Shown here: one piece after another, positions 4,442-30,254 of the stretch
How the letters are laid out: each line of letters begins with the position of its first letter
How positions within the stretch are numbered: position 1 is the stretch's first letter
Assembly: GCA_017445755.1 (NCBI GenBank)
Contig: JAFSSE010000016.1
Span: forward strand, 1-39,608
Origin: Bacteroidales bacterium
Lineage (GTDB): Bacteria; Bacteroidota; Bacteroidia; Bacteroidales; UBA932
Direction of reading: 5' to 3'
Length of the DNA stretch: 39,608 bases
Position numbers and translations under genes: made by a program
Notes under the pieces: generated by a model
What the model was told of the DNA's origin: nothing
The model's input: only the letters and a program-made list of their open reading frames with translations
The model's database searches: none

Positions 4442-6040
4442 TTACAGCCCGGCAAGGGTCAGATAGCGGGCGTAGCGTTTGCTAAGGACGGAGCTTTCCC
4501 CGGGAGTATACTTCCGTGAGGTCGGAGGGCAGAGGGCATCCTCGGCCGCCTCCACGCTCGGATAGAGTCCGGCGATGACGGCCGCATGGACCGCGGCCCC
4601 GAGGGCGCATGAATCCTTGGCCGAGGAAACCTCTATTTCCTTGCCGAGGACATCCGAAAGCATCTGCATGACAAAAGGCGATTTCTGCGCCACTCCGCCG
4701 ACTGCCACATATCGTCCGATTTCAACCCCACCCTTCTCGAGGTGGTCCATGACCGCTTTCGTTGCAAAGCAGGTTGCCTCGACAAAGGCGCGGAAGACTT
4801 CAGGTGCGGATGTGGAAAGCCGGAGTCCTTCGAGGGTTCCGGTCAGGGAGTTGTCCCCGAATGGCGAACGGCGGCCGTTGAGATAGTCTGTCGCGAGGGG
4901 GGCGTCTTCCCGCTCCGGAAGTGCCGCAGCGGCTTCCGAAAGGTCTGCAATCATGGTTCCTTCGATCTCCGCCGCCCTCTCCGGATCGAGTTTCCTGAGC
5001 GGCCAGCTCAGGAAGTTCTTGACCCAGGCATAGACATCCCCGAAGGCGGACAGGCCGACCTCAAAGCCGACCTGACCAGGAAGAATGGACCCATCGACCT
5101 GGGCAAAAACGCCCGGCAGGACCTTTGAGCCATAGATCTCCTTCGGCATTACAGCCATGTAGCAGGACGAGGTCCCGAGGTTCAGGATTATGGTCTTGTA
5201 GCGTACGCCACCGCCGACCGCGCCGGAATAGCTGTCGATATTGCCGACTCCGATTCGGACCGTTTCCGGAAGGCCCAGCTTGGCCGCCCACTCGGCACAG
5301 AGCGTCCCGGCGGGCTTGTCACAGCCGAAGTTTTCCTTAGGGAGGGCGAGACGATTAAGGCGCGGGTCGAGTTCATCGAAGAAACTCTCCGGAGGGAAGC
5401 CGCCCCACTCCTCGGCCCACATCCACTTCGCCCCGAGGCAGCAGTGGCCGGGCCGGAAGGATTCCATGTCGTTGCAGCCCGAAAGGACCGCGGAAATCCA
5501 GTCGCAGCACTCGATGGCGCAATAGGCGTTTTCCGCAACCTGCGGTGCAGTACGGACGATATGGAGCACCTTGGACCAATAGTTTTCGGCCGAGTATACC
5601 CCGCCGCTATGGCAGGTATAGGGATAGCCCTTAGTGTCGCAAAGGGTATTTATTTCCACGCTTTCGGCCATCGCAGTATGGTCCTTCCAGAGGATGAACA
5701 TCGCCGAAGGATCCTCCTCGAAGCCCGGTTTAAGGGCGAGAGGGGTCAGAGTCCGGTCCGCAAAACACGGGGTCGATGCAGTCGTATCAATAGAAATGGA
5801 AACGATATTTTCAGGTTCCGGGCAGGCGCCGATTACACCTTTAAGTATGGTTTCAAGAACTTCGAGATAGTCTTTCGGATGCTGCCGGAACTGAGCTTTG
5901 GCCGCATCGCAGAACTTCCCTTCCGCCCAGCGGGGATAAGCGGCCGTCTTTCCGGCGAGAATCTCCCCGGAAAAGGCATCCACGAGGATTGCCCTCGCGG
6001 AATCCGTGCCATAATCGACACCTATGACAAACTTGCCCAT
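4442..6040 (-). CDS. araB: ribulokinase (AraB-type FGGY kinase)
   Basis: At 532 residues this matches the usual length of AraB and resembles the E. coli enzyme throughout. It has VDYGTDSARA at the N-terminal phosphate-binding strand, the AraB-specific CDAAKAQFRQHPKDY stretch, FILWKDHTA, WGGFPPESFFDELDP, LGTSSCYM, NGRRSP, and a C-terminal GGVAQKSPFV / CALGAAVHAAV ATP-binding region. AraB phosphorylates L-ribulose with ATP. The E. coli enzyme also accepts D-ribulose, ribitol and L-arabitol. No arabinose isomerase or ribulose-phosphate epimerase is next to it. It is the last gene of the G1P dehydrogenase/PTS operon, one base after the preceding stop. A role on ribitol or another pentitol is therefore possible (inference). 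Confidence 0.9.
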   Translation of the reverse strand: MGKFVIGVDYGTDSARAILVDAFSGEILAGKTAAYPRWAEGKFCDAAKAQFRQHPKDYLEVLETILKGVIGACPEPENIVSISIDTTASTPCFADRTLTPLALKPGFEEDPSAMFILWKDHTAMAESVEINTLCDTKGYPYTCHSGGVYSAENYWSKVLHIVRTAPQVAENAYCAIECCDWISAVLSGCNDMESFRPGHCCLGAKWMWAEEWGGFPPESFFDELDPRLNRLALPKENFGCDKPAGTLCAEWAAKLGLPETVRIGVGNIDSYSGAVGGGVRYKTIILNLGTSSCYMAVMPKEIYGSKVLPGVFAQVDGSILPGQVGFEVGLSAFGDVYAWVKNFLSWPLRKLDPERAAEIEGTMIADLSEAAAALPEREDAPLATDYLNGRRSPFGDNSLTGTLEGLRLSTSAPEVFRAFVEATCFATKAVMDHLEKGGVEIGRYVAVGGVAQKSPFVMQMLSDVLGKEIEVSSAKDSCALGAAVHAAVIAGLYPSVEAAEDALCPPTSRKYTPGESSVLSKRYARYLTLAGL

Positions 6041-6041
6041 C

Positions 6042-6965
6042 TTATTTTTTCTTTCCCTTGTAAATCATTTCGAAGAGCCCGTCCTGGCCCTGGATAAGGT
6101 AGCGGTCTTTCTTGAAGTGGGCGCAGTCCTCGAGCTCTCCAGTCGTTCCAAGACCCATGTCCAGCACCTCTACGGGGCGTTTTTTATTGAGGTCCCAGAC
6201 GAAGAGGTAGCTCGGGTACTCGGGGGTTCCGAGACCGGTAGGCATAAGGAGCTTGCCCTTATAGATGCAGAGCCCCTGGCCGATGGTAGCATAGGAAAGA
6301 CCGTTGTCTTCGACCACGTAGTTTTCAAGGATGTCGGCGCCTGTGAGGGTGACCTGAGGACCTTCGGACAGCTTCGGCAGACGGAATTTCACGATGCGGT
6401 GCTTATTGTTTTCGAGGTCCTTGTCCTTCGTAGTGTTCCCGAAGCCGTAAAGGGCCTTGTTCTCGCGGTCCACAACCCACTGGAGGGCATATCCGAAGAG
6501 GTTATAGGTATCTTCGAAATAGATTGTCTGAACGAGCTCCGAGCTCTGGAAATCCTTTGCAATCCTCTCTACGAAAAGGACGTCCTTACGGCCCTGGTAG
6601 GGCTTTTTATGGCACTGGCTGATATAGAGAACCGGCAGGCGGTCCCGCTTTGAGAACTTCTCGACTCCGAAGCTGGCGACGTTGGAATGGTTTACCGGGT
6701 CATGGGTCGCAAGGTCGAAGCCGCCAAGCCGCTCAAGACCGTCCTTGCCGTCATATTTCCACACGGTCGCAATTCCGGTATGCTGCAGCGAGACGATATA
6801 CTTCTTGTAGCAGTCCATACCCTGGTAGTTGTGTTTCTCGAACTCGGTGATGTGGCGGTTCTTGAAAGTGTCGGTCGAAAGCGGGAGGGACACAAAGCCC
6901 ATGTTCTGGCCGAAAAGGGTCGCTGCTGCAAGAATTGCTGCGAGGGAAAGGAGGATTTTTTTCAT
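6042..6965 (-). CDS. secreted beta-propeller-like protein, paralogue of the EEP-fusion C-terminus
   Basis: The 307-residue protein has a signal peptide (MKKILLSLAAILAAATLFGQ) and then about 285 residues of short beta-rich repeats without a catalytic motif I can name. It clearly resembles the C-terminal half of the 569-residue protein at 28545-30254. Shared features in the same order are an HxNxAxFG segment, LPVLYISQC versus YPLFYTSEC, the block VKFRLPKLS, a T(G/D)AD(I/V)L segment and a late Gly-rich strand. It lies 22 bases after ptsI and one base before araB, so it is co-transcribed with the PTS operon. Its position suggests a periplasmic or surface binding, sensor or lyase-like role linked to the imported substrate, but the function is unknown. 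Confidence 0.7.
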   Translation of the reverse strand: MKKILLSLAAILAAATLFGQNMGFVSLPLSTDTFKNRHITEFEKHNYQGMDCYKKYIVSLQHTGIATVWKYDGKDGLERLGGFDLATHDPVNHSNVASFGVEKFSKRDRLPVLYISQCHKKPYQGRKDVLFVERIAKDFQSSELVQTIYFEDTYNLFGYALQWVVDRENKALYGFGNTTKDKDLENNKHRIVKFRLPKLSEGPQVTLTGADILENYVVEDNGLSYATIGQGLCIYKGKLLMPTGLGTPEYPSYLFVWDLNKKRPVEVLDMGLGTTGELEDCAHFKKDRYLIQGQDGLFEMIYKGKKK

Positions 6966-6987: not shown

Positions 6988-8553
6988 TTATATCTTTATG
7001 GTCATAAGATTACGCCGCGTTTGGGAGACCATGGAGCACGGAACGCTTAGAGAGGTGAATCCCATACGGAGAAGGTCCGGCTGAAGAGCCGCATCGGAAG
7101 CCGCCTCGCCGCAGATTCCAACGGGGATATGTTCCTTTGCGGCTGCATTGGCGATTATCGACAGAGCCCTCATGACAGCGGGATCAGTTACATCATAATA
7201 GCTTGCAACAGAGGAATTTCCACGGTCTGCAACCATTACATACTGGGTCAGGTCATTGGTCCCGACGCTGAAAAAGTCCACCTCTTTCGCGAGCTCTTCC
7301 GCGATAAGAACAGAGGCGGGAGTTTCGACCATGACCCCTATTTCCACTTCGGGGTCATACGGAAGGTGCTCCCCATCAAGCTCCTTCATGCAGAGGGATA
7401 TGATTTCCTTCGCCTTAAGGACCTCCTCTACGCGGGTAATCATGGGAAGAAGGATCCTTATCCTGCCATGGGCCGAAGAGCGCAGGATTGCACGGATCTG
7501 GGGGCGGAACAGCTCCGGCCGGGCCAGGGAAATCCGGATCGCCCGGAAACCGAGGAAAGGATTGTCCTCCCGCGGGAGTTCCAAATACGGCAGGGCTTTA
7601 TCCCCTCCGATATCCAACGTTCTGATTGTCAGCGGTTTCTCTCCACAGAGGCGGGCCGCTTCCGCGTAAGTTTCATATTGTACGTCTTCCGTCGGAAGGG
7701 CGTTCCCTTTCATGTAAAGGAACTCGCTCCGGAACAGCCCGACGCCGTCCGCGCCGTTTTCCATGGCCTTCCTCACCTCGGCGATGCTGCCGGCGTTCGC
7801 ATAGACCTTTACGGGACATTCTCCCTCCTCTCCCGCCTCGGGAAAAGGCGAAAAGGATGTCAACTTTTCTGAAAAATGGCTTTCCGTCCCGGCATCCGGG
7901 TTAATTATGAGCTCTCCGCTGTTTCCGTCCACGAGCAAGCGGTCTCCGTCATGGATATTCCCGACAGGAATACCGAAAAGGGCCGGGATTCCATAGCCCC
8001 GGGCGAGAATTGCGACATGGCTCGTCACGCTCCCTTTTTCAAGGACAAAACCCCTGACCCTCGAAAAATCCATACGGACGGTGTCAGACGGGAAGAGTTC
8101 GGCGGCAACCACAATTACATCCTGCTCCGGATCGGAAGATGAAGCCGCGGCCGGGGAAGCCATATTCCTTATAATCCTCCGGCAGACGTCCCGCACATCG
8201 TCCTTCCTGGAGCGGAGATATTCGTCATCAATCGCATCGAACATCGAGGAAATCTCCTCTGAAGCAGCTTCCACGGCCTCTCTTGCTCCCATCCCCTTAC
8301 GGATATCCGCCTCAACCGTCTCTGTAAGCAGAGGGTCTGACAACATCTCGAGGTGGGCCGAAAGGATTTCAGAAAGGGTTCCCTCCGCCACTGTCCCTTC
8401 AATCTCCCTGCTGGACGCGGAAAGGGCGCTGCGAAAGGTTTCAAGCGGGGATTCCGAAGATTCCGAAAAGGACTCCGCGGGAGCGTCCGGGTAAAGGAGG
8501 GCGGTTCCGCGGGCGAGGCCACCGGTGGAGATATGGGTCGAGAGGCGTTCCAT
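6988..8553 (-). CDS. ptsI: PTS enzyme I (phosphoenolpyruvate-protein phosphotransferase)
   Basis: The 521-residue protein moves phosphate from PEP to HPr. It has the N-terminal HPr-binding helical region (about 40-130), the phosphohistidine domain with TSHVAILAR (active His179), and the PEP-binding TIM barrel with TLDIGGDK, FLGFRAIR, the VGTNDLTQY block and the active-site Cys481 in VGICGE. It is about 50 residues shorter than the usual 570-575, mostly at the N-terminus and linker regions, but all key residues remain. Its ATG follows the HPr stop codon directly (no gap). PTS genes are uncommon in Bacteroidota, so a complete EI-HPr-EIICBA set inside one operon is notable. Confidence 0.93.
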   Translation of the reverse strand: MERLSTHISTGGLARGTALLYPDAPAESFSESSESPLETFRSALSASSREIEGTVAEGTLSEILSAHLEMLSDPLLTETVEADIRKGMGAREAVEAASEEISSMFDAIDDEYLRSRKDDVRDVCRRIIRNMASPAAASSSDPEQDVIVVAAELFPSDTVRMDFSRVRGFVLEKGSVTSHVAILARGYGIPALFGIPVGNIHDGDRLLVDGNSGELIINPDAGTESHFSEKLTSFSPFPEAGEEGECPVKVYANAGSIAEVRKAMENGADGVGLFRSEFLYMKGNALPTEDVQYETYAEAARLCGEKPLTIRTLDIGGDKALPYLELPREDNPFLGFRAIRISLARPELFRPQIRAILRSSAHGRIRILLPMITRVEEVLKAKEIISLCMKELDGEHLPYDPEVEIGVMVETPASVLIAEELAKEVDFFSVGTNDLTQYVMVADRGNSSVASYYDVTDPAVMRALSIIANAAAKEHIPVGICGEAASDAALQPDLLRMGFTSLSVPCSMVSQTRRNLMTIKI

Positions 8554-8817
8554 CTAATCTTTTACGCTCCGGATAAGGGATACAATTGCTTCTACGGCCT
8601 CGGCCTCGGCGGGGCCGTCTGCGGCAACTTCTACCGCTGTTCCCTGTTTTAGTCCGAGGGAAAGAATTGAAAGCATGCTGTTTGCCCGGACTGTACGGTC
8701 TCCGGCGGAAAGGGTGATTTCCGTTCCGGAAAAAGATTTCACAAGCTGGACCAGCTCAGTTACCGGACGGGCGTGAAGGCCGTTAGGCGCTTCGACTGTA
8801 ACTTTTTCTCTTATCAT
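8554..8817 (-). CDS. ptsH: PTS phosphocarrier protein HPr
   Basis: The 87-residue protein begins at ATG 8817 and has the HPr signature NGLHARPVTELV with phospho-accepting His15. Ser47, in NSMLSILSLGL, lies at the position of the regulatory serine (Ser46) of Firmicutes HPr. A longer in-frame extension to 8940 is rejected because it runs inside the EIICBA gene and lacks HPr similarity. HPr accepts phosphate from enzyme I and passes it to the EIIA domain encoded upstream. It lies 10 bases after the EIICBA stop and abuts ptsI. No HPr kinase is visible in the window. Confidence 0.93.
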   Translation of the reverse strand: MIREKVTVEAPNGLHARPVTELVQLVKSFSGTEITLSAGDRTVRANSMLSILSLGLKQGTAVEVAADGPAEAEAVEAIVSLIRSVKD

Positions 8818-8827: not shown

Positions 8828-10630
8828 CTATTCGAGTTCTCCGCGGATAAACTCCGGATCATCAGAGGTAAATAGTTTCTGAAGGGTTTCCTCGTTCTCG
8901 AGGGCCGTGGAAAGGTGGGCGAGGATATCGAGATGTTCATTCCCGACTCCTGCGATGCCTATTACAAGGTACGCCTTTTCATCTCCGAAAACCACTCCCT
9001 CAGGGTACTGCAGGACGGAAATTCCGCTCTTTAGGATCTTTTCTTTCGCCTCCGACGTGCCGTGGGGTATGGCAACTCCCATCCCCATATAGGTCGTCAG
9101 TGACCTTTCCCTGTCGAGCATCGCCTCGGCGTATCCCGGGGCGACGCAGCCGCTTTCTTCAAGAAGGCGTCCGGCACGGAGAATCGCCTCCTCCTTCGAC
9201 TCGGAAGGAAGGCCGGCAAGGACCTTTTTCACGAGCGACGACGGCTCCTCCAGAGGAGCACTAAGCCGCTCAAGCAGGGCGTCCAGGGCCGGGTCCGAAA
9301 GGAAATTTGTCAGAGTGACAATCTCCGGAAGACGGTCCTTCCGTCCCGGGGAATCCGGGTCTATGGCCATTCTTGAGGCGAGGGAATGCTGGCAGACTAC
9401 CAGGTCTGCATCTGCAGGTATCCGGTCAATGGGAGCGTTGCTGCAGCGGATGTCCGGCAGGTTCGCCTTCATGAGCCGGGCCTTGAAACGGGTGGCCCCG
9501 AGGGCGCTCGAACCCATGCCCGCATCGCAGGCAAAGACGATTTTCCGTATCCCGGAGAGTGTTTCCGGAAGGGATACCGGGCCTGAAGCCGCTTCGCCCC
9601 CCTCCTCTTCGCCCTGGAAATCAGGCCGGGCCTTGACCATGGGAATGGAAAGGAGGAACGACACCAACGTCCCTATGAGAACGCCGAGGATTCCTATCAG
9701 GGTCCTCCCCCGCGGGGACATGATTATAATCGAAATGAGACTTCCCGGAGAGGCCGGAGCGACGAGCCCAAAACTGGTCAGGGTATAGAACGTCAGGGCG
9801 CAGATATTTCCTCCCATGACCGCCAGAAGCAGAATCGGCCGGGCGAGGACATAGGGGAAATAGATTTCATGGATGCCGCCGAAGAGCTGGATGACAGCCG
9901 CGCCAGGGGCGGACTGCTTTGTCATGCCCTTTCCGAAAATCCAGCACGAAAGAAGGATTCCGAGTCCAGGACCGGGATTCGGATCCACGAGGAAGAGCAT
10001 GGACTGACCGATTTCGGCCGCCTGCTGGATGCCGAGCGGGGTCATGATTCCGTGATTCACGGCATTGTTGAGAAAGAGCACCTTCGCGGGATCAACGAGG
10101 ACGGCAAGCAGCGGATTGAGCCCCTTTCGGAGCATCCAGTTTACCCCGGAGCTGAGCCAACCGGTAAGGGTGGACACGACATTCCCGATTACGAGATAAC
10201 CCGCAATCGCGAGAATCATGGCGATAATTCCGAGGGAGAAGTTGTCCACCAGCATTTCGAAGCCGGCGCCGACCTTCCCTTTAACGAGGGAATCGAATTT
10301 CTTTATGCACCAGCCGGCGATCGGGCCCATGATCATGGCCCCGAGGAACATCGGGGTGTCCGTCCCGATGATGACTCCCATTGCAGCGACCGCTCCCGCA
10401 ACGCCGCCCCGGTATCCGCCGACATTCTTTCCGGCGGTAAAGGCGATAAGGGTCGGTAGCAGGTATTTCAGCATCGGCGAGACCATCTTCGCAAGGTTCT
10501 CGTTCGGGAACCATCCGCCGGAGATGAACATGGCCGTGATAAGACCCCATGCGATGAAGGCGCCGATATTCGGCATCACCATCGCACTGAGGGAGCGTCC
10601 GAAACGCTGAATAGCTGCCTTGGCGGGCAT
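8828..10630 (-). CDS. mtlA: mannitol-type PTS permease EIICBA (polyol-specific)
   Basis: The 600-residue protein has the domain order IIC-IIB-IIA of E. coli MtlA and similar length. The IIC domain (about 1-335) opens with FGR(S/F)LSxMVMPNIGAFIAWG and contains the GGIHEIYFPYVL motif of the substrate site. The IIB domain has CDAGMGSSALG with phosphorylatable Cys368, and the IIA domain has VAIPHGTSEAK with His523. It would import and phosphorylate a hexitol or related polyol across the inner membrane. No mannitol-1-phosphate dehydrogenase (MtlD) is present in the window, so mannitol need not be the substrate. It lies two bases after the GDPD gene in the same operon, with its own HPr and EI downstream. 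Confidence 0.88.
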   Translation of the reverse strand: MPAKAAIQRFGRSLSAMVMPNIGAFIAWGLITAMFISGGWFPNENLAKMVSPMLKYLLPTLIAFTAGKNVGGYRGGVAGAVAAMGVIIGTDTPMFLGAMIMGPIAGWCIKKFDSLVKGKVGAGFEMLVDNFSLGIIAMILAIAGYLVIGNVVSTLTGWLSSGVNWMLRKGLNPLLAVLVDPAKVLFLNNAVNHGIMTPLGIQQAAEIGQSMLFLVDPNPGPGLGILLSCWIFGKGMTKQSAPGAAVIQLFGGIHEIYFPYVLARPILLLAVMGGNICALTFYTLTSFGLVAPASPGSLISIIIMSPRGRTLIGILGVLIGTLVSFLLSIPMVKARPDFQGEEEGGEAASGPVSLPETLSGIRKIVFACDAGMGSSALGATRFKARLMKANLPDIRCSNAPIDRIPADADLVVCQHSLASRMAIDPDSPGRKDRLPEIVTLTNFLSDPALDALLERLSAPLEEPSSLVKKVLAGLPSESKEEAILRAGRLLEESGCVAPGYAEAMLDRERSLTTYMGMGVAIPHGTSEAKEKILKSGISVLQYPEGVVFGDEKAYLVIGIAGVGNEHLDILAHLSTALENEETLQKLFTSDDPEFIRGELE

Positions 10631-10632
10631 AA

Positions 10633-11460
10633 TTAATAAACTACGTTAATCCAGGGCATCTTTTCGCCCATGAACTTCATGGTCTCGCCGGGAATGTCCG
10701 TGCAGAGGAAATCGGCTCCGAGATAAACCCCGAGAATGAAGTCCTCGATACGGTGGGTCGGCCAGAGACTGACGATGAGCCCGGCATCATGGGCGGCCTT
10801 CACGGCCTCGCGGGAGGTCCCTTCGGTCTTCGCCCCGATGCGCGGGATACCCATGGTCTTGCAGAGGTAGATTGTCTCCGCGTTCACCGGCTTCGAAACA
10901 ATCAGGAGCAGGTCCACTCCGGGATGCTTCTGCTGGAGATAACGGAGCGGGCGGCCGTCGGAGGAGGTGAAGAGGTACTGGGCGTCCGCGGGTTTGTTCG
11001 CCATGACCTTTTCATAGACCATGTCGCAGTAACGGTAGAGGGTTCCGTCCTCCTCGGAGTAGTTCTCGACGGGTTTTGTCTTCATCTCGAACTCTACGTA
11101 GAGGTGCTTCTGGCCCTTCAGGAACTCGAGGAACTCGTCGAGGGTGATAATCCGGTTGCCACCCTTGGTCTTCAGGGCCTTGATTTCCGCCCAGGTCTTC
11201 TCCTCGACCTTTCCATGGCCGTTTGTCGTCCGGTCAAGGGTATTGTCATGGGTCAGGATTAGGACTCCGTCCTTTGTCATCCGGATATCGGTCTCATATC
11301 CGGAATAGCCCATGTCGCGGCTGGCGATAAAGGCCGGCATCGTATTCTCATCATACTCCATGCGGCCACCCCGGTGGGAGAAGGCGCGAACGGTCTGGCT
11401 CTGTGCCGATGCGCTCAGAACGGCACATGCTGCCAGAAGGAAACATATCGCTCTTTTCAT
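10633..11460 (-). CDS. periplasmic glycerophosphodiester phosphodiesterase (GDPD)
   Basis: The 275-residue protein has a cleavable signal peptide (MKRAICFLLAACAVLSASAQ) and a full GDPD domain. The canonical acid-base and metal residues are present: H29-R30-G31, E38-N39 in DENT, E56 and D58 in ETDI, and H71 in THD, with the downstream CTDIP motif near the C-terminus. Enzymes of this family hydrolyse glycerophosphodiesters to glycerol phosphate plus an alcohol. The start codon overlaps the stop of the GlpT-like transporter by one base. The transporter is placed to take up the released phosphate ester. It is the second GDPD in the window (see 17920-18867). The stereospecificity of the bond cleaved cannot be read from sequence. 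Confidence 0.92.
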   Translation of the reverse strand: MKRAICFLLAACAVLSASAQSQTVRAFSHRGGRMEYDENTMPAFIASRDMGYSGYETDIRMTKDGVLILTHDNTLDRTTNGHGKVEEKTWAEIKALKTKGGNRIITLDEFLEFLKGQKHLYVEFEMKTKPVENYSEEDGTLYRYCDMVYEKVMANKPADAQYLFTSSDGRPLRYLQQKHPGVDLLLIVSKPVNAETIYLCKTMGIPRIGAKTEGTSREAVKAAHDAGLIVSLWPTHRIEDFILGVYLGADFLCTDIPGETMKFMGEKMPWINVVY

Positions 11461-12824
11461 TATTCTTCGGTTACAGTGTTTCGTGCCTTGTCCTTAAGGT
11501 TCCAAAGCGAAACGATAAGGAGGAAGCCGATTACGGAAACTCCTGCCATCAGGATGAAAATCGGGTGCCAGCCGAACTTGTCGGCGAAAAGGCCGAGCGG
11601 GAGACCCGTGATAAGGGTCGAGAGGTAGCTCATGAAACCGATGATACCGACGGCGGAGGAAGCCGCCTTCTTCGACACTTCGTTCGAAGCAATCACACCG
11701 AGAAGGGCCTGGGGGCCATAGAGGAAGAAGCCGGCGAGGGCGAGAACGACGAGGAAGAGCACGGGAGAATGCATGTCCTGGATGAAATGGAGGGCGACGA
11801 GGCAGAGGGCCACGAGGACCATTTCAATGGCGCAGACCCTCTGGGAGCGGCTCTTGAACAGTTTGTCGGAGACATAGCCGGCGGCAATCATGCCGAGGCA
11901 GCCCGCAACTTCGAAGATACCGACTGTCCATCCGGAGAGTGCCTGGCTGAGACCCATGTCCTGAAGCATGGAGGGGCCCCAGTCGAGAATCGCGAAACGA
12001 ACGACATAGACAAAGAGGTCCGTAAGGGCGAGAATCCAGACGACCGGATTCAGGAAAACCTTCTTTACGAGGAACTTCCGCCACTCTTTCTTATCACGGC
12101 CCTTCTCTTCGTCAAGCTCTCCCTCGACCTTCGGAAGCTCCGGAAGACCGACGGATTTCGGGGTGTCGCGAAGGGTCACGAAGATGAAGAACACACCGAC
12201 AAGGGAAATCGTCGCAGGAACCCAGAAGCACATCTGCCAGCTCGTCAGGTAGCCGCAAATCACGGCCGCAACGAAGGCGCCGACCGAGTGGGAGGTATTC
12301 CAGATACTCATCTTTGTGGCTAGCTCATGCGGGGGTACCCAGTTGACCATCAAGTGGTTACACGGGGCAAAACCGCAGCCCTGGAAGATCTGGTTGACGA
12401 TATAGAGGACAGACATTATGGCCACGAGGCCGCCGATGAAATCCGGTCCCCCGCTGACTCCGGTAACAAGGGTCGTCAGCTTGGCGGACCAGCCGAAAAG
12501 GAAGTTGACGGCTACGCAGACCCCGAGCCCGAGAATCAGGTGCCAGCGGGCATTGGTCCGGTCTCCGATGACTCCGTTGATGAGCTTGGAGATACCATAG
12601 ATAATGCCGCCCGCCGAAAGAATGGCTCCGAAGTGGGCCTTGGTGAGCCCCGGATAAGCATTCTGAAGAAGCGGAATCGCGAAGGAGAAGTTCTTCCTTA
12701 CAAAGTAGAACATCGCATAGCCGATCATCGAACAGATGATGACCTGCCACTGCCAGGACTTGAACCAGTCCGTTTTCCCGTCCTTTCCCTTAAGACGGAA
12801 AATAGGTTTTACCTTCGGTTCCAT
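11460..12824 (-). CDS. glpT: organophosphate:phosphate antiporter (GlpT/UhpC-like MFS)
   Basis: The 454-residue, roughly 12-TM protein is of the OPA family. It shows MFYFVRKNFSFAIP in the first helix, GCGFAPCNHLMVNW in the region of the substrate site, and the SIWNTSHSVG motif matching SxWNxxHxxG of GlpT. Family members exchange glycerol-3-phosphate or sugar phosphates for inorganic phosphate across the inner membrane. Translation is tightly packed: it starts three bases after the G1P dehydrogenase stop and overlaps the GDPD start by one base. The neighbours make a glycerol phosphate the likely cargo. UhpT/UhpC-type hexose-phosphate specificity is the alternative. Confidence 0.85.
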   Translation of the reverse strand: MEPKVKPIFRLKGKDGKTDWFKSWQWQVIICSMIGYAMFYFVRKNFSFAIPLLQNAYPGLTKAHFGAILSAGGIIYGISKLINGVIGDRTNARWHLILGLGVCVAVNFLFGWSAKLTTLVTGVSGGPDFIGGLVAIMSVLYIVNQIFQGCGFAPCNHLMVNWVPPHELATKMSIWNTSHSVGAFVAAVICGYLTSWQMCFWVPATISLVGVFFIFVTLRDTPKSVGLPELPKVEGELDEEKGRDKKEWRKFLVKKVFLNPVVWILALTDLFVYVVRFAILDWGPSMLQDMGLSQALSGWTVGIFEVAGCLGMIAAGYVSDKLFKSRSQRVCAIEMVLVALCLVALHFIQDMHSPVLFLVVLALAGFFLYGPQALLGVIASNEVSKKAASSAVGIIGFMSYLSTLITGLPLGLFADKFGWHPIFILMAGVSVIGFLLIVSLWNLKDKARNTVTEE

Positions 12825-14273: not shown

Positions 14274-14312
14274 AATTATGTGTGTATTTTCAGGTTTTGC
14301 TCACGCAGTTCA

Positions 14313-14320: not shown

Positions 14321-14335
14321 GTTATTTCCAAGGAG

Positions 14336-14375: not shown

Positions 14376-14403
14376 AAAAAGGGTTAGGTTCGCGGAAAAA
14401 CCG

Positions 14404-23800: not shown

Positions 23801-24439
23801 GTAACCGATTACGACGACGTCATCGAGGATGTTCTGGTCAATCGAAAGGGCCACATTGATAACAGAGGAGCGGCCTACTACGACCTCCTCGTCCGTGAAA
23901 CCGATGAAGGAGAAAACGAGGGTTTCGCCTTCCCGGGTTTCCATGGACCAGTTGCCGTTCGTGTCGGTCATGGTACCGCGGTTGGTGCCCTTGACCATAA
24001 CTCCGGCAGCTGCAAGAGGTTCGCCTGCATTGTCCACAACCTGGCCCTTCACCGTCTTCCTGGCACGGTCCTGGGGCGCAGCGGCGGGAGTGGGCTGCTG
24101 GGGCTCGGCGGCCGTCAGGACGACGGTGCTGCCGACAACCTCATAGCTGATGCCTTTCCCCCGGAAGGCCTCGGAAAGAAGGTCTTCAAGGGATGCATCC
24201 TTCGCCTGGAGAGATACAGCTCCGAGACGCTTCCCGGCGAGAGATGACTCGTACGAGAAGACGACACCGGTCTGTTCCGTAAAAGCGTTGGTGAAAGAAC
24301 GGACTGTTGCCCCTCTTTCATTCATTTTCACCGTGTAAGTGCGTTGCAGCAAGGATATTTCCTCCGCACTGGAGATAGCTCCAGAGAGGAGGAGGGCCCC
24401 CGCCACAACGATCATACGGATCAAGTTTTTAGGATTCAT
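20843..24439 (-). CDS. susC: SusC/RagA TonB-dependent transporter with STN signalling domain
   Basis: The 1198-residue protein has a signal peptide, then an STN (secretin/TonB short N-terminal) domain at about 35-110. A carboxypeptidase-regulatory-like domain follows (about 128-205, GQVVDNAGEPL...GFTDEEV), then a TonB-box-like DDVVVIGYGT, a plug (about 225-330 with VDGVERG, ISVLKDAAS, VYGSRASNGVI) and a C-terminal beta-barrel ending in a terminal Phe (LKITF). The STN domain is the hallmark of transporters that signal to a FecR anti-sigma factor in the periplasm, and fecR lies directly upstream (45-base gap). It imports the locus substrate across the outer membrane with SusD. Confidence 0.95.
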   Translation of the reverse strand: MNPKNLIRMIVVAGALLLSGAISSAEEISLLQRTYTVKMNERGATVRSFTNAFTEQTGVVFSYESSLAGKRLGAVSLQAKDASLEDLLSEAFRGKGISYEVVGSTVVLTAAEPQQPTPAAAPQDRARKTVKGQVVDNAGEPLAAAGVMVKGTNRGTMTDTNGNWSMETREGETLVFSFIGFTDEEVVVGRSSVINVALSIDQNILDDVVVIGYGTQSRKTLTTAVAKVDGKSIESAPVSTVADALKGKVTGLHIVSNNNLPGEAPSMMIRGGSSINRSNAPLTLVDGVERGFEDLSPNDIESISVLKDAASTAVYGSRASNGVILVTTKKGDAFKAPQVVFEAQVGVTTPAKKWNMANSTQFLNMIRPAAYYGPNSTLVLDGANGPGVGNTTSTATYSTRYLADGESVPDGYLSMPDPINPTKTIIYTNHDWQSDWYDTAGYYKQYVGINGGNKAMKYAASISHLTDEGMVAMSRYENFTMHGNTSFKITNKLTASTTFDFSRNLKNPMTSDYFAALGRGLMMSPTHIGKYADGTFATGGTNKNQQSAEFYSTFYDRENSRQKFMGNMNLKWDITPWLSATAQYAMFDNYYRGSYYAYGERNGSINFVSTTRSTSESRTETNRQNFQAYLTLNKQIGKGKLDGTAGYDWSYWTYYSLSTSNTGALDDKIPYLQSGGDNTSATMSMSNAEYSTALISYFGRLAYNYLDRYILAGTIRADGSSLFLEENRWGYFPSVSGAWVISEEPFFAPLRNEMNHLKLRVSYGQTGNNNIARTAPLGAYATGSYAGYNTLLPSVMQNAGLRWETTTQLDAGIDAGFKNDRIRVVLDYYDKVTSDLIYSITLPDTGQFGSVTSNVGSVRFYGFEAELHTVNIRNRNFEWSTDITYSFNRNKVLSLPEDYAYEIIDMDGNPTGEIGYRIGGTSTANGYRYGGTAVGEPLGRIWGYKVAGILQTDEEAAAALYDTQSHGYRRSDGMSITGRKDAGDFEWLNRYGTAKTADGLEQIDATDLFLLGNVVPHSIGGINNSFTWKRLTINVYMDFALGHSIYNYMKTRMVQNTLGYSNSNFDVDLAASCWRYPGDKTDVARFFPNDADYGNRNFSRCSSFNVEDASYLCLRDVSVYYDLPDKWAAKAGMKKITVGFTGNTLHYFTRVSGAISPETGIAADADGTGLYSSVQMGSSNSNIMPPAAKLLANLKITF

Positions 24440-24484: not shown

Positions 24485-25444
24485 TTATTTATTGCGGACG
24501 ACCGAGCACTGGTCTCCGGTCAGGAGTTCCAGGACGTGGACGACGTCGTCCGGACCGTCGCTCTTGAGGAAGTTGAAATCGTACCGGGTCTGGTCGGATT
24601 CTCCGGAAACGGAAACCCTCACCGGGAAGGTCTTTTCTATTTCAGACACAATCTCCGCCACGGTTGCATTGGAGAGCGAAACGATACTGTAGTTGGAGAC
24701 CACGAAGGGAGATGCGGCGACCGGCTCGACCGTGATGTCGGAGGTACGGCTGCTGAAAACCGCCCTCTGGTCGGGGGAAAGGCGCACGAGCGGGACCCCG
24801 GAAGGCGTCGAAAGGCGGACCGAACCTGTTTCCAGGACGATTTCCGTATTCTGGTATCCGTTCTTTGACGCTACGGTAAAGGTGGTTCCAAGGACCCTGA
24901 GATAGACGTCCTTGGTACGGATCGTCATCGGGCGGAGCGTATCCCTGGCTATATTGAAATAGGCATCCCCGTCGAGGGTAATCGTCCTCTCCTCCGGCTC
25001 TGAAAGGTTATAAAGGACCGATGATCCCGGCTTAAGGCAGATTTTCGATCCGTCCGGGAGGGTATATAGCCGGACTACTTCCGTATTATTGGAAAGAAGG
25101 GTTTCCTTCACGGGCTCTTCCAGGGGTTTCGGCCGGGAGAAGACGAGGCCGACTACGATGGCCGCGGCGGCGGCAATACCGCTTATCCACATAAATGGAC
25201 GACGGGAACGTTTCTTTCCCTCGGCAGCGTCAATTCGCGCATTCAGACGCGAAAGCATCCGGTCCTCCCTCTCCTCGGAGTCGGGAAGGCGGTCTGTCTG
25301 GTGGCGGGAAAGGGTCACGGAAAGCGATGCGAAAAGGCGCCGGTTTTCCTCCGACTCCTCCAAAAAAGACATCAGCTGCTGCTTTTCTTCCTCAGTGGCC
25401 GTTCCTTCGAGATAGCGGTTAATAAGTGTCAGTGTATTTTCCAT
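24485..25444 (-). CDS. fecR: FecR-family anti-sigma factor
   Basis: The 319-residue protein starts at ATG 25444 (MENTLTLINRYLEG). It has a cytoplasmic anti-sigma N-terminal domain (about 1-80), one transmembrane segment at about 85-105 (GIAAAAAIVVGLVF), a periplasmic FecR domain (about 120-220 with YTLPDGSKICLKPGS, GDAYFNIARD, VLGTTF) and the C-terminal domain that binds the STN domain of the transporter. The frame stays open for another 428 codons upstream, antisense to the GH109 gene, but that extension has no family similarity. FecR holds or activates the ECF sigma factor. Unusually, the probable partner sigma gene is not adjacent but lies beyond an opposite-strand GH109 gene. Confidence 0.93.
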   Translation of the reverse strand: MENTLTLINRYLEGTATEEEKQQLMSFLEESEENRRLFASLSVTLSRHQTDRLPDSEEREDRMLSRLNARIDAAEGKKRSRRPFMWISGIAAAAAIVVGLVFSRPKPLEEPVKETLLSNNTEVVRLYTLPDGSKICLKPGSSVLYNLSEPEERTITLDGDAYFNIARDTLRPMTIRTKDVYLRVLGTTFTVASKNGYQNTEIVLETGSVRLSTPSGVPLVRLSPDQRAVFSSRTSDITVEPVAASPFVVSNYSIVSLSNATVAEIVSEIEKTFPVRVSVSGESDQTRYDFNFLKSDGPDDVVHVLELLTGDQCSVVRNK

Positions 25445-25534: not shown

Positions 25535-26914
25535 ATGAAAACTACAAAATACCTTCTCGCAGCACTTGCAGCCCTTGTTTTTGTTGGCTGCAGCTCCCGT
25601 ATCGACGCCTCCCTCCCCGCAACCGTAAAGGACGGAACCATAACCCTCAAAACCCCGGCGAGGGCTCCCGGACAGGTCCACGCCATCGGACTGGCGGCAG
25701 ACCCGATCGACACGGTCCGCATCGGATTCATAGGACTTGGCATGAGGGGGGACGATGCCGTGAGGCGGTACAGTTTCATCGAAGGGACAAAGACAGTTGC
25801 CCTCTGCGACCTCTACCCCGACAGGGTCTCGAAGGCGCAGGTATTCCTCTCCTCGAAAGGACTTCCGGAAGCCGCCGGCTATGACGGCGAAGACGGCTGG
25901 AAGGCTCTCTGCGAGAGGTCTGATGTTGACCTTGTATATATTTGCACGGACTGGAAACACCATACCCCCATGGCCGTGTATGCCATGGAACACGGTAAGC
26001 ATGTCGCCATTGAGGTGCCCGCAGCCATGAGCATCAAGGAGTGCTGGGCCCTTGTCGATGCCTGCGAAAGGACCCGGAAACACTGCATTATGCTGGAGAA
26101 CTGCGTCTATGACTTTTTCGAGGCGACAGTGCTGGAAATGGCAAAGGCCGGACTCTTCGGGGAGATTTACCATGTCGAAGGGGCCTATATCCACAATCTG
26201 GACCCCTTCTGGGATGAATACGCCGACAACTGGCGCCTCCTTTACAATGCACAGTTCAGGGGGGACAACTACCCCACCCACGGCATAGGCCCGGTCTGCC
26301 AGCTTCTCGACATCCACAGGAAGGACCTCATGGACTATGTAGTTTCTATGGACACCGACTCTTTCAACGGGAAAAAGCTTGCCGCAGAAAAACTTGGTAC
26401 AGAGGACTTTGCAAACGGAGACCATACCGTATCCCTGATCCGGACCCAGAGGGGGAAACAGATTGAAATCCAGCACAACGTTTACGCCGCAAGGCCCTAC
26501 AGCCGCATGTACCAGGCGACCGGGACGGAAGGATTCGCCAACAAATACCCCGTCAAAGGGCTCGCCATCAAGGGAAAGGCCATCACCCGGAAGCAGGAAG
26601 GGCTCGACTATGACCGTCTGGACGGGGAACGCTTTGTCCCGAAGGAAGTCTACGACGCCCTTATGGACGAGTATAAACCCTCTTATATCCGTGAGATTGA
26701 ACAGAAGGCGCGGGAGGTGGGCGGCCACGGAGGCATGGACTTTATCATGGACTCCCGCCTCATTTACTGCCTCCGGAACGGCCTGCCCCTCGACATGGAC
26801 GTCTATGACGCAGCTGAATGGAGCTGCCTTACGGAACTTAGCCGCATCTCAATTGAGAACGGCTCCGCACCGGTAAAGGTCCCGGATTTCACCCGGGGAG
26901 ATTGGAACAGGTAG
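25535..26914 (+). CDS. GH109-like NAD-dependent glycosidase lipoprotein (Gfo/Idh/MocA fold)
   Basis: The 459-residue protein has a lipobox (LVFVGC, Cys19). It then has an NAD-binding Rossmann domain with IGFIGLGMRG, CDLYPDRV and EVPAAMSIKECW, and the long C-terminal domain of GH109 with MLENCVYDFFE, GGHGGMDFIM and LPLDMDVYDAAEW. GH109 enzymes use bound NAD to hydrolyse alpha-N-acetylgalactosaminides, and family members are often surface lipoproteins in Bacteroidota. The true substrate here could be another alpha-linked sugar. The gene lies between fecR and the sigma gene in opposite orientation: it is divergent from fecR, and its stop is three bases from the sigma stop. It has its own promoter. 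A substrate decorated with alpha-GalNAc or a related sugar would link it to the locus (inference). Confidence 0.88.
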   Translation: MKTTKYLLAALAALVFVGCSSRIDASLPATVKDGTITLKTPARAPGQVHAIGLAADPIDTVRIGFIGLGMRGDDAVRRYSFIEGTKTVALCDLYPDRVSKAQVFLSSKGLPEAAGYDGEDGWKALCERSDVDLVYICTDWKHHTPMAVYAMEHGKHVAIEVPAAMSIKECWALVDACERTRKHCIMLENCVYDFFEATVLEMAKAGLFGEIYHVEGAYIHNLDPFWDEYADNWRLLYNAQFRGDNYPTHGIGPVCQLLDIHRKDLMDYVVSMDTDSFNGKKLAAEKLGTEDFANGDHTVSLIRTQRGKQIEIQHNVYAARPYSRMYQATGTEGFANKYPVKGLAIKGKAITRKQEGLDYDRLDGERFVPKEVYDALMDEYKPSYIREIEQKAREVGGHGGMDFIMDSRLIYCLRNGLPLDMDVYDAAEWSCLTELSRISIENGSAPVKVPDFTRGDWNR

Positions 26915-26917: not shown

Positions 26918-27463
26918 CTATACCCCCGCGAGAATACTCCGGAGCTGCTTCAGGGCAGTGTACATGTGGTTTTCCACCGTCGAGGTGGAAAGCCCGAGCC
27001 GCTCGGCGATTTCCTTATTGGACATATCCTCGAGATAACTCATGCAGAAGACTTCCCGGACCCTCGGGGAGAGGGTCGAAATCGCGCTCTCAATAGTCTC
27101 CCGGAGGTCCTGGCGGAAGAGCCCGAGAAGGACCGGGTTCGATTCCGGAGCATAATATCCGGTCATGATTTCGAGAATCCGCTCATCGTAGTAACTCCGG
27201 GCCGTATGGCGGCGTTTAAGATAATTGACGCAGCGGTTATAGACCGAGCGGAGGAGATACCCGGAGAGAGTCCCGTCGTCCCTTAGACGGCTACGGCGCT
27301 CCCAGACGCCGAAAAGTACGTCCTGGACTACATCCTCGGCCCAATCGTCCTTCACGAAAAGCCGGGCATAGGAGATCAGGGACGCGTACCTTTCGCGGCA
27401 GAAAGCGTCGAAGGCCTTCCTGTCGCCGGAGCGTATTGCATATATGTATCCCTGCTCTGTCAC
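26918..27463 (-). CDS. ECF sigma-70 factor, Bacteroidota SusCD-linked type
   Basis: The 181-residue protein has region 2 (about 10-75, with AEDVVQDVLFGVWERR) and region 4 (about 120-175, with LSPRVREVFCMSYLEDMSNKEIAERLGLSTSTVENH). The start is GTG at 27463, overlapping the stop of the upstream EEP gene as GTGA, and no better ATG exists. These sigma factors are freed by FecR when the SusC STN domain signals substrate, and they activate the transporter operon. It is encoded at the end of an operon with two EEP enzymes, not next to fecR. The regulator is thus co-transcribed with probable degradative enzymes. Confidence 0.92.
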   Translation of the reverse strand: MTEQGYIYAIRSGDRKAFDAFCRERYASLISYARLFVKDDWAEDVVQDVLFGVWERRSRLRDDGTLSGYLLRSVYNRCVNYLKRRHTARSYYDERILEIMTGYYAPESNPVLLGLFRQDLRETIESAISTLSPRVREVFCMSYLEDMSNKEIAERLGLSTSTVENHMYTALKQLRSILAGV

Positions 27464-28548
27464 AGCTTAAAATCAACGAGGATCGGATAATGGTCCGATG
27501 GTGTATAGTAATTGGATATGCCCGTGTGCTTCACTTCGCACCAGAGGTCGTAAATGACTTCCGCCTTCACCACCCGAGCGTACATCGACGGCGAAGCGTA
27601 CATGAAATCATAGCGCGGGGGATCACCGTCCGCGACCCAGGTCCTGGTCATGAAAAACTTCCCTGGATGCTTCAGGGCTATGATATCCTGCCATGTCGTC
27701 TTGTTCAGGATATAGTCGTGGCTGCTCAAGCGTGGATCCTTTTCGTCAAAACCATAGTACCAGTTGTCGAGAGGGGACCTGGTGTTGAAGTCTCCCATCA
27801 TCAGCCAGTCTTTCTCGGAAGCATATTCGGGATTCTGGTAAGTCTTCTGGCAGATATAGGTAATCTCCTTTTCCCTCTGGATATTGCCCTCCCCCTTCGA
27901 GGAGCTCGACGAGGTCGCCTTGCTGACATACTTTGCATAGTAGCTGTAGGCATGGGGCCACAGGTGGAGGGTGACGAAATTGATGGACTTTCCCCCGACG
28001 CGGATTCTCTGGAGGGCCGCCCCGTGGGCGACAGGATAATAATTCGTGCCGGTCTTGGTGTGGTCGAAGCCCTCGGGAAGCGGAATGAGCGAAGGGTCCG
28101 TTTCGGTGATTTTCAGGACGGTCTCTATGGGATATTTCGAGGTAACGACCTGAGGATAATAATCGTCGGCATAGAGGCGGTACCCTCCGATGGCGGTATA
28201 GTCGTGGCCATAGGACTTTGAGAATTCGGGCCATCCGTCCGGGAAATAGCGGTCCCCCGCCGCCATCATCTTGGAAGTCCCGGATTTATAGATGCTCTGG
28301 GCTTCGCACCAGACGCAGACGTCCGGGGCGTACTTCTTCACAAACTCCCGGAAATTGCGGAATTCGTTGTCCTGGTCATACCACATGCCGTTCTGGATAT
28401 TCCAGTACAGCACCCTCAAGGTCCCTTCCTCCCGCTCGGCGGGATCCACGATTTCAACCTTTTTCGGCTCGGGGACGCTGCGCCCATCCTTCCCGCAGCC
28501 GGAAATGAGTGCGAGAAAAGCGAGCGTTATGACCCCTTTTGCCTTCAT
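27460..28548 (-). CDS. EEP-family lipoprotein phosphodiesterase/phosphatase
   Basis: The 362-residue protein has a lipobox (ALISGC, Cys18) and the EEP fold: VLYWNIQNG with the catalytic Asn, CVWCEAQ with the Glu, VTLHLWPH, MMGDFNTRSPL, a PPRYDFMYAS strand and the final PSDHYPI with catalytic His. It probably works on the cell surface or in the periplasm. The family covers nucleases, sphingomyelinases and inositol phosphatases, and the substrate here is unknown. A Ser-rich insertion (KATSSSSSKGEGN) follows the LHLWPH strand. ATGA overlap couples it to the EEP-propeller fusion upstream, and GTGA overlap couples it to the sigma gene downstream. Confidence 0.87.
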   Translation of the reverse strand: MKAKGVITLAFLALISGCGKDGRSVPEPKKVEIVDPAEREEGTLRVLYWNIQNGMWYDQDNEFRNFREFVKKYAPDVCVWCEAQSIYKSGTSKMMAAGDRYFPDGWPEFSKSYGHDYTAIGGYRLYADDYYPQVVTSKYPIETVLKITETDPSLIPLPEGFDHTKTGTNYYPVAHGAALQRIRVGGKSINFVTLHLWPHAYSYYAKYVSKATSSSSSKGEGNIQREKEITYICQKTYQNPEYASEKDWLMMGDFNTRSPLDNWYYGFDEKDPRLSSHDYILNKTTWQDIIALKHPGKFFMTRTWVADGDPPRYDFMYASPSMYARVVKAEVIYDLWCEVKHTGISNYYTPSDHYPILVDFKL

Positions 28549-30254
28549 CCCTTTATGTCAAATCTCCAGATTTCGGACATCCGGGGCTGCTTTGCCTTGT
28601 GGAAGACCACGTAGAGCCAGTCCCCTTCGAGATCCACGCCCTCCGGCTCCATCCCGATGTAGGAGATGTCGTGCTTTATTATGGTCTCATGGGTCTCGGT
28701 ATCGACGACCATGATATAGCACTTTCTCGGAGGGGCTCCGGCGGTGATATAGAGGTATTTCCCCCGGGCGATGCCGCCCTGGGCAATGCCGATGTCGTCG
28801 ATCGTGAATTCGTCCAGCACATCCGCGTCGGTCAGGCGGACATACCCTTCGGCATCCGAGTCGGAGAGCTTCGGAAGACGGAATTTCTTTACCCAGCGGC
28901 GCCCGAAGCGTTCTCCGCCGTAAGTATATACATATCCGTTCTCGACGTCGAGGTCCCAGTCGAAGCAATAGCGGTAAACCTCATTCTCATACTCGAACAT
29001 CTGGACAATCGGGGCGTCATCCAGCGCAAGGTCCTTTACGAAGCAGCGCTTGCGCCCGCGGCACTCCGAGGTATAGAAGAGCGGATAGCGGGAGTTCTCA
29101 CTGAAATACTCGTTTCCGAAATTGGCGTTGTTGTTGTGGGAGGTGTCGCCGGGCTGCATGAAATGCCCGATCATCTTCCCTTCCTTCATGTCGAAGATGT
29201 CACACTCGCCCTTGTCGCGGATGATGACGCACTCGTCGCCATGGATGGCGAAACCCTGGGTCGAACCCTTTATGACGGTGTCCGCCGGGGTCCAGTCGTT
29301 TACGCAGGCGATCTTTTCACCCTTTAAAGAGGGCTTATAGTAGTGCTGCTCCTTCCTGGGAACGAAATACTCGAAGTCGGCATAGACCGGGAAATGGTCC
29401 GAGATGAACTTGACGCCGTATTTCTCCATGTCGTTCGCGACCTTGAACTCGAGGGCCGCCATGTGGCAATAGTAGATATGGTCGATGCGGGTCCATGTCG
29501 AAGGGTCGTCGCGGAAGCCGTTGAAGGTCGGCGAAGGGTCCACCTTCGGGGAGGAGAAGCTCGTCCGGGTGATATACTTGTCAAGCGGCAGGAGGCGGGG
29601 ATCTTCGGCGTCGAGATTGAAATCTCCGCAGAAGAAGACGATTCCCTCGTCGCCGGCAATCTCGTAGATCTTGTCACGGGTCATGCGGACGCACTGCTTC
29701 CGGCCGGTCTCGCCGGCGGGGAAGAAATGGGTGCAGAAAACGAAGATTTCCTTTTTCGCCTTCCGGTCCATGAGCTTTGCCCAGAGGGTTACCTTCGGGG
29801 TGGGACCGTCCCAGCCGAGGGAGGACTTTTCTGGAGTCTTTGAGAACCAGTACCTTCCGCAGTCGAGAAGGTCGAAGCGGTCGCTGCGGTACATGATAAG
29901 GTTCCTCTGGCCCCCGTTCTTATAATTGTCCTCCGTAAGGGACTCTTCCATCCCCTCCTTCACGACGCCGTCCTTCGCGCAGCGGATCTGGGCGTACTCC
30001 GGGAAGGCCTCCTGAAGGTCGTCGCACTGTTTCCTCCGCGCTTCCTGGATGCAGGCGACGTCGGGAAGGACGTCCTTGAACATGGCCATGACTCCTTCCC
30101 TGCGGTTCTCCCACTCATGACCCTCCGGTTCGCCTTTCGACTGGAGGATATTGAAGGACATGACCCGGATGCCGACGGGCTCATACTTCTTCGCGCACGA
30201 GGCCGTAGCAAGGAGCAAAAGCGCTCCGAGAAGGAGGGAAACGTGTTTTTTCAT
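28545..30254 (-). CDS. two-domain lipoprotein: EEP enzyme fused to a propeller-like domain
   Basis: The 569-residue protein has a lipobox (LATASC, Cys20) and an EEP domain at about 30-295 with MSFNILQSKG, CIQEARR, FCTHFFPAG, FCGDFNLDAED, a TRIDHIYY strand and SDHFPVYADF. A second domain at about 325-569 is a beta-rich propeller-like region that resembles the separate secreted protein at 6042-6965 (shared KFRLPKLS, TDADVL and following blocks). The fusion links the hydrolase with that domain directly. The gene begins one base after the aspS stop and overlaps the next EEP gene by ATGA. The second domain may bind or further process the same substrate (inference). Confidence 0.85.
   Translation of the reverse strand: MKKHVSLLLGALLLLATASCAKKYEPVGIRVMSFNILQSKGEPEGHEWENRREGVMAMFKDVLPDVACIQEARRKQCDDLQEAFPEYAQIRCAKDGVVKEGMEESLTEDNYKNGGQRNLIMYRSDRFDLLDCGRYWFSKTPEKSSLGWDGPTPKVTLWAKLMDRKAKKEIFVFCTHFFPAGETGRKQCVRMTRDKIYEIAGDEGIVFFCGDFNLDAEDPRLLPLDKYITRTSFSSPKVDPSPTFNGFRDDPSTWTRIDHIYYCHMAALEFKVANDMEKYGVKFISDHFPVYADFEYFVPRKEQHYYKPSLKGEKIACVNDWTPADTVIKGSTQGFAIHGDECVIIRDKGECDIFDMKEGKMIGHFMQPGDTSHNNNANFGNEYFSENSRYPLFYTSECRGRKRCFVKDLALDDAPIVQMFEYENEVYRYCFDWDLDVENGYVYTYGGERFGRRWVKKFRLPKLSDSDAEGYVRLTDADVLDEFTIDDIGIAQGGIARGKYLYITAGAPPRKCYIMVVDTETHETIIKHDISYIGMEPEGVDLEGDWLYVVFHKAKQPRMSEIWRFDIKG

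Follow-up and report, generated by a model that had tools for sequence, protein, structure and literature searches.

The locus described here raises the question of what a SusCD-type import system serves when phosphodiesterases, and not a set of glycan-cleaving enzymes, accompany it. It spans positions 4442 to 30254 of contig JAFSSE010000016.1 from a Bacteroidales bacterium (assembly GCA_017445755.1), a stretch of 39,608 nucleotides that we call the window and that makes up a single contig of a genome of 2.18 Mb, 83% complete. The initial annotation had read it as a possible polyol-phosphodiester (teichoic-acid or phosphoglycerol) utilisation locus built on a SusCD system, and comparison with Pfam, NCBIfam and PDB recovered all of the gene families that it named, with corrections to the strand of the GH109 gene, the start of FecR and the type of the phosphotransferase system (PTS), and with one previously unlisted exported protein (Table 1). 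Its interpretation was borne out in part: we find it fairly probable that the locus serves the utilisation of glycerophosphodiesters through SusCD, whereas the PTS, the EEP lipoproteins and GH109 fall outside the conserved core and the span is probably not a single unit.

The gene content is consistent with this function. SusC and SusD are adjacent and SusD is a lipoprotein, as in SusCD-type utilisation loci, and the pair is linked to envelope signalling, which is common, if not universal, in such loci: the sigma factor and FecR scored above their cut-offs and the STN domain of SusC, at 25.3 bits, below its cut-off of 28.4. Both glycerophosphodiester phosphodiesterases (GDPD1 and GDPD2) contain the GDPD domain with its catalytic H-R, E-x-D and H elements, and in GDPD2 the H, R, E, D and H positions are all kept despite a Pfam score just under the cut-off. 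The AraM-type enzyme can be assigned to the Fe-ADH_2/glycerol-1-phosphate dehydrogenase family by its fold, the best-scoring solved chain being a glycerol-1-phosphate dehydrogenase, and by its D-H-H positions, which we take to be the metal ligands; a further Fe-ADH_2 match, weaker at 40 bits, lies elsewhere in the same genome (G000:C27:47719-48009, locus L010; G000 denotes the window's genome, and the other L and G numbers used below denote fetched comparison stretches and genomes). The transporter beside AraM proved to be of the OPA/GlpT-type organophosphate antiporter (OPA) family, but an identity as GlpT itself was not upheld, as the TIGR00881 model and the glpT equivalog model (266 bits against a cut-off of 632.55) both stayed under their cut-offs, which fixes the family and not the substrate. 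The set of glycan-cleaving CAZymes that defines a polysaccharide utilisation locus (PUL) was not found: among 28 window open reading frames (ORFs) scanned with Pfam rather than a CAZy library, GH109 was the only glycosidase family matched, and the core proteins scanned gave no glycosidase or lyase match, in line with the earlier remark that the locus has one glycosidase and no polysaccharide lyase.

From the observed genes, their conservation and their neighbourhoods we infer a route, together with its substrate, cell locations, stereochemistry and regulation and the direction in which AraM works. SusCD, with surface BACON and GDPD lipoproteins, would bind and import a phosphoglycerol-bearing molecule, from which periplasmic GDPD1, with GDPD2 helping, would free glycerol phosphate. 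The OPA antiporter would then bring glycerol phosphate into the cell, and AraM would oxidise sn-glycerol-1-phosphate to dihydroxyacetone phosphate (DHAP), feeding glycolysis, while ECF sigma/FecR would sense the ligand via SusC. If AraM indeed acts on sn-glycerol-1-phosphate, its natural sources would be lipoteichoic acid (LTA), the head groups of phosphatidylglycerol or phosphoglycerol-decorated glycans, and all three are compatible with the gene set as candidate substrates.

Conservation in relatives, where absence always refers to the fetched stretch and many loci end at contig ends, also points to a phosphodiester rather than a plain glycan. Of 393 genomes of the order, 3 gave relatives of SusD at E 1e-50, the window's included. 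Outside the window, SusD proteins 48-75% identical occur in L026, L040 and G041, each with a GDPD2 relative and an OPA transporter; AraM is kept in two of these three, and the third (G041) has a glycerol-3-phosphate dehydrogenase homologue. L026, whose AraM is 93% identical, contains SusC, SusD, a BACON protein, GDPD2, the long BACON protein, AraM, GlpT, GDPD1, MtlA, HPr and enzyme I (EI). L040, which L066 extends, occupies the same chromosomal site (AspS-KsgA) with a SusC 53-55% identical, and keeps the sigma factor, FecR, SusC, SusD, a BACON lipoprotein, GDPD2, AraM, GlpT and AraB, additionally holding a mannitol-1-phosphate dehydrogenase. GDPD1, the PTS, the EEPs and GH109 were not seen in the fetched L040/L066 stretches, which places the EEPs, GH109 and the PTS outside the conserved core. 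Near two more distant SusD proteins (34-37%; L055, L056), the fetched stretch showed no GDPD; by eye, these SusD genes adjoin dihydrodipicolinate-synthase-like genes.

The company that AraM keeps adds to this picture. Used as a query, AraM matched in 7 of 119 genomes searched from the family and in 7 of 393 from the order (the window's genome counted in both), and 19 loci were drawn from named genomes, which are Bacteroidales assemblies and, to judge from their titles (in which RUG presumably stands for rumen), mostly from rumen, omasum, rectum or faeces. In 31 AraM loci, the window among them, many of which are cut by contig ends and some of which are near duplicates, an OPA transporter lay within 10 kb of AraM in 19, a GDPD in 11, an HAD-IIA phosphatase in 11, a DeoR regulator in 6, GlpD in 4 and GlpA in 2. 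AraM occurs with GlpD and DeoR in L059, L060 and L062, with GlpD in L024, with GlpA in L038 and L044 and with GlpK in L044, and GlpB and GlpC were seen by eye beside GlpA. Outside the window, 443 kb around AraM contain 12 GDPD genes where 2.0 would be expected at the density of the window's genome; as these loci share ancestry, part of the profile's training set came from them and the density is that of this one genome, the Poisson value should not be read as a real probability. In a quick tree, some of whose long branches are unsure, AraM falls into two deep clades, and GDPD and OPA neighbours occur in both. A separate observation concerns a small protein that resembles a portion of enzyme I, encoded after AraM in L029 (2743-3132), L032 (11351-11749) and L041 (960-1349), where no GlpT adjoins AraM; scanned in L029, it is a lone PEP-utiliser mobile domain.

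How the genes are transcribed bears on the extent of the locus. Spacing is tight from SusC to the 1165-aa BACON lipoprotein and likewise from AraM to AraB. As the gap between the two sets holds a predicted terminator hairpin and a TAnnTTTG box, which we take to be the Bacteroidota -7 type promoter motif, the span probably comprises at least two transcription units, SusCD-GDPD2 and AraM-GlpT-GDPD1-PTS-AraB. The box begins 47 bases before the AraM ATG and is one of 15 in the window, both strands counted; similar boxes precede AraM in L026, L027, L028 and L042 and lie farther upstream in L040. The PTS, described earlier as a polyol PTS, is indeed present and could be refined to a mannitol-type system with its own EI and HPr; together with AraB, it is probably a neighbouring polyol module carried in the AraM transcription unit. 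An L-arabinose operon (AraBAD) was considered for AraB and rejected: AraA (PF02610) was not found in any of 6 genomes searched, among them the window's incomplete one, which makes a role in ordinary arabinose breakdown unlikely.

Several observations weigh against the proposed glycerophosphodiester route. The predicted terminator and promoter divide its two halves. In L027 and L028 (AraM 84-85%), AraM-GlpT stands opposite MtlD-MtlA-HPr-EI-AraB near AspS, with neither SusCD nor GDPD in the fetched stretches; in L042, another SusCD pair comes after AraM-GlpT, its SusD sharing 50% identity with the SusD of a second locus in the window's genome, and no GDPD was found in the fetched stretch. Thus the question on which the initial annotation had staked its case, whether GDPD, AraM and GlpT travel with this SusCD pair, received a mixed, mostly favourable answer, with L026, L040 and largely G041 in favour and L027, L028 and L042 against. 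SusCD lay near AraM in 8 of the 31 loci, not clearly above its density (23 first-look SusD candidates in 2.18 Mb), and we rejected the notion that counts alone prove their linkage; it is the orthologous loci, and not the counts, that argue for it. AraM lacks an OPA transporter, a GDPD and SusCD nearby in L022, L025, L029, L030, L032, L033, L037 and L041, several of them short contigs. GDPD2 itself is split over two frames in L026 (5241-6123), by a broken gene or an assembly error, and has methionine for the arginine after the first catalytic histidine in G041, which makes its activity there doubtful; a class-wide search with the GDPD2 profile at E 1e-30 hit the window's genome only (1 of 395), with at most 5 candidates scored per genome and with G041 and G893 having contributed rows to the profile. 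The open-licence literature yielded no biochemistry on these proteins. Finally, GlpQ-type GDPDs are strictly sn-3 specific and leave phosphatidylglycerol and intact LTA uncut, GlpQ cutting only sn-3 ends free of sugar or alanine (PMC7086022), and a GDPD that releases glycerol-1-phosphate would therefore need another stereospecificity.

Among the rival readings, it is unlikely that the substrate is a phosphoglycerol-decorated glycan, for example an osmoregulated periplasmic glucan or a capsule, which would make the locus a PUL to which phosphodiesterases have been added. E. coli glucans bear sn-1-phosphoglycerol, GH109 sits inside the locus, and the best solved match of GDPD2 is a chain named beta-1,3(4)-glucanase (E 1e-9), the next being a GDPD (3e-9), so that the target of GDPD2 may be a glycan with such decorations. 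Published maps of Flavobacterium PULs place GDPD genes among glycosidases (PMC12758843, PMC9131120), and Sphingobacterium proteins named GDPD were classed as GH16 (PMC4666044). Set against this are the single glycosidase family in the window, encoded on the opposite strand and not seen in L066/L040, and core proteins without a glycosidase or lyase match. That the span is a chance juxtaposition of two unrelated operons, one with SusCD-GDPD2 and the other for polyol phosphates (AraM-GlpT-GDPD1-mannitol PTS-AraB), would account for the terminator and promoter between the halves and for L027 and L028, which have most of the second half and lack the first, but each half has a GDPD, the halves stand together in L026 and L040, and in G041 an OPA gene and a second GDPD join the orthologous SusCD; we regard it as rather improbable. 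A phosphate-scavenging role, in which the phosphodiesterases supply phosphorus and not carbon, recalls the Flavobacterium PUSI, described as a phosphate depletion-induced SusCD-like complex with two periplasmic phosphodiesterases (PMC8115612). The linked glycerol-phosphate dehydrogenases and the OPA antiporter point instead to carbon use, OPA antiporters being ones that swap organophosphate for phosphate, and the 28 window ORFs scanned yielded neither a recognisable Pho regulator nor a Pi transporter. We see this role as a poor prospect.

AraM might also work in the anabolic direction, making glycerol phosphate in place of a missing GpsA. In counts that leave out the genomes of L029-L033, L035, L037 and L041, 13 of 23 AraM-bearing and 7 of 41 AraM-less genomes gave no match to canonical GpsA of at least 100 bits (Fisher p 0.002), that is 20 of 64 overall, the window's among them. 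However, in the quick tree the signal comes mostly from one AraM clade, because of which we do not take the association as independent evidence; there are genomes that lack both GpsA and AraM, not all of the genomes are complete, the neighbours of AraM are in many cases catabolic, and glycerol-1-phosphate is the wrong enantiomer for bacterial phospholipids. We give this alternative little credence. Archaeal-type lipid synthesis as a use of glycerol-1-phosphate was rejected as well: in the same set, PcrB reached its cut-off in 2 of the 23 AraM-bearing genomes (G124 and G451), with a sub-cut-off match in G893 and none in the window's genome.

Returning to the glycerophosphodiester route, the possible existence of sister loci sorted by enantiomer is, in our eyes, the interesting part of the finding. 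G041, of the same genus and without AraM, has an orthologous SusCD pair (SusD 48%) with a GDPD2 fused to a repeat region. Its locus further contains an OPA transporter, a second GDPD, an S1/P1 nuclease and a protein of the sulfatase family, as well as a divergent homologue of glycerol-3-phosphate dehydrogenase with a best NCBIfam score of 103 bits, under the cut-off of 257. A second locus of the window's genome (L065; G000:C14, 9600-19999) combines SusCD, three BACON lipoproteins and two GDPD-type genes with the same kind of dehydrogenase; its GDPD2 paralogue has no Pfam match at E 0.001 and matches the GDPD2 profile at 9e-45. G894 (L073) repeats this arrangement and adds an OPA gene. Across 12 loci of this dehydrogenase homologue, counted over the fetched stretch (two adjoining stretches for G041), GDPD occurs in 5, SusCD in 5 and OPA in 3, at least one of them in 7; the remaining 5 have none, two of these lying on contigs under 10 kb. 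Of the ten GDPD-type genes found in the window's genome, six are in stretches with SusC or SusD genes. Further GDPD genes stand beside SusC/SusD or SusD genes in L069 (G000:C31) and L067 (G000:C28), the fusion partner being an HAD hydrolase in one case and, in another, a calcineurin-like phosphoesterase, with a sulfatase-family gene next to it.

We tentatively suggest, as an unlikely extension, that some Bacteroidales graze on Gram-positive phosphoglycerol polymers with paired SusCD-GDPD loci sorted by mirror-image product. The AraM-type locus would handle sn-glycerol-1-phosphate (from LTA or phosphatidylglycerol head groups) and the locus with the glycerol-3-phosphate dehydrogenase homologue sn-glycerol-3-phosphate (from wall teichoic acid, WTA, or other glycerophosphodiesters), and the part of the lineage that has lost canonical GpsA may also take lipid backbones from the polymers of Gram-positive neighbours. 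The pair of dehydrogenase types makes for a clear-cut prediction here, as WTA and LTA of B. subtilis 168 are enantiomers, the former a poly-sn-glycerol-3-phosphate and the latter a poly-sn-glycerol-1-phosphate (PMC7086022).

Among known systems, enterobacterial and Bacillus glp systems (GlpQ, GlpT, GlpD/GlpABC, GlpR) share with the window a phosphodiesterase, an organophosphate antiporter and a dehydrogenase yielding DHAP; unlike it, they have no SusCD, and their dehydrogenase acts on sn-glycerol-3-phosphate whereas AraM belongs to the sn-glycerol-1-phosphate family. B. subtilis AraM (EgsA), of the same Fe-ADH_2/glycerol-1-phosphate dehydrogenase family, feeds PcrB, of which the window's genome gave no match. 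Closer in design are the Flavobacterium PUSI and PUSII (PusCD), which, like the window, pair a SusCD-like complex with phosphodiesterases or a phosphatase instead of CAZymes and for which lipid head groups and nucleic acids are among the phosphodiesters proposed as substrates; both are induced by phosphate depletion (PMC8115612). Hence the earlier statement that no SusCD locus of this content had been described needs narrowing: the locus appears to be of a SusCD-phosphodiesterase type already described in Flavobacterium, and what differs is the gene combination, in which ECF sigma/FecR is linked with AraM, with an antiporter of the OPA family and with a polyol PTS. In B. thetaiotaomicron, a published table lists the SusCD pair BT4724-25 near the GDPD gene BT4727 (PMC10434189). 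Among the matches listed from the open-licence literature, none tied a SusCD locus to teichoic acid use, although no search paired SusD with AraM. If correct, the proposal would carry the SusCD paradigm, for Bacteroidales of gut and rumen, beyond glycans to phosphoglycerol compounds as carbon and suggest a catabolic role for bacterial AraM-type enzymes. It would also offer a testable case in which members of one gut phylum feed on other phyla's teichoic acids or lipid head groups.

Table 1. Features of the locus in window coordinates, with the matches on which each assignment rests.
Feature	Position	Strand	Evidence
AraB-type FGGY kinase	4442..6040	-	NF003154 557 bits (cut-off 428); TIGR01234 463 (cut-off 583), under; 52% match in L040
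Exported protein, unnamed family	6042..6965	-	no Pfam/NCBIfam match; domain shared with C-terminus of EEP lipoprotein 2
PTS enzyme I	6988..8553	-	PF02896, PF00391, PF05524; TIGR01417 over cut-off
HPr	8554..8817	-	PF00381; LHARP site; likely start assigned
Mannitol-type PTS IICBA	8828..10630	-	NF011663 643 bits (cut-off 589)
GDPD1, exported glycerophosphodiester phosphodiesterase	10633..11460	-	PF03009 121 bits; catalytic residues kept
OPA/GlpT-type organophosphate antiporter (MFS)	11460..12824	-	PF07690; TIGR00881 best, 310 bits (cut-off 408)
AraM-type glycerol-1-phosphate dehydrogenase family enzyme	12828..14273	-	PF13685 (Fe-ADH_2) 97 bits; NF002022 145 bits (cut-off 413)
Predicted terminator hairpin and promoter before AraM	14274..14403 (130-base gap)	-	12-pair stem then U8, z -3.5
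Lipoprotein, 1165 aa, two BACON domains	14404..17901	-	PF13004, PF19190
GDPD2, lipoprotein phosphodiesterase	17920..18867	-	PF03009 23.4 bits (cut-off 23.6); lipobox; relatives adjoin SusD in L026, L040, G041
BACON lipoprotein, 148 aa	18869..19315	-	PF13004 26.1 bits; lipobox
SusD lipoprotein	19306..20823	-	PF14322, PF07980; lipobox; 75% (L026), 54% (L040), 48% (G041)
SusC, TonB-dependent transporter, weak STN domain	20843..24439	-	PF07715, PF00593, PF13715; 53-77% matches in L040/L066, L026, G041
FecR anti-sigma	24485..25444	-	PF04773 over cut-off; 38% match in L066
GH109-family lipoprotein, divergent	25535..26914	+	PF21252 102 bits; PDB 6t2b E 5e-77; likely ATG 25535
ECF sigma factor	26918..27463	-	PF08281/PF04542 over cut-off; 58% identical orthologue adjoins FecR-SusC in L066
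EEP lipoprotein 1	27460..28548	-	PF03372 33.7 bits; lipobox
EEP lipoprotein 2, extra C-terminal domain	28545..30254	-	PF03372 40.6 bits; lipobox

Within the first half, the ORF of FecR (747 aa, to 26728) is over-extended, with its likely ATG at 25444, and part of the 1165-aa BACON lipoprotein matches the stretch that follows GDPD2 within one G041 protein. GH109 lies between the sigma factor and FecR, opposite in strand to the rest of the locus, and no GH109 was found between these genes in L066; that it removes an amino-sugar substituent is speculation. The domain of the unnamed exported protein occurs alone (6042-6965), fused to an EEP in the window (28545-29351) and fused to a PAP2 phosphatase in L038, and it is encoded near AraM in L033, L036 and L038; a profile of the 6042-6965 protein gave one match in PDB, at E 0.84. 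A third EEP-family exported protein lies outside the span at 1564-2445 and overlaps the gene of an MFS transporter (1564-3743 together), and relatives of both adjoin AraB in L027 and L028. On the other side, a PfkB-family kinase and a zinc alcohol dehydrogenase (32894-34770) lie together next to KsgA and may belong to another polyol pathway, and a large SpvB/FG-GAP/RHS-repeat protein (35715-39608) runs off the contig end.

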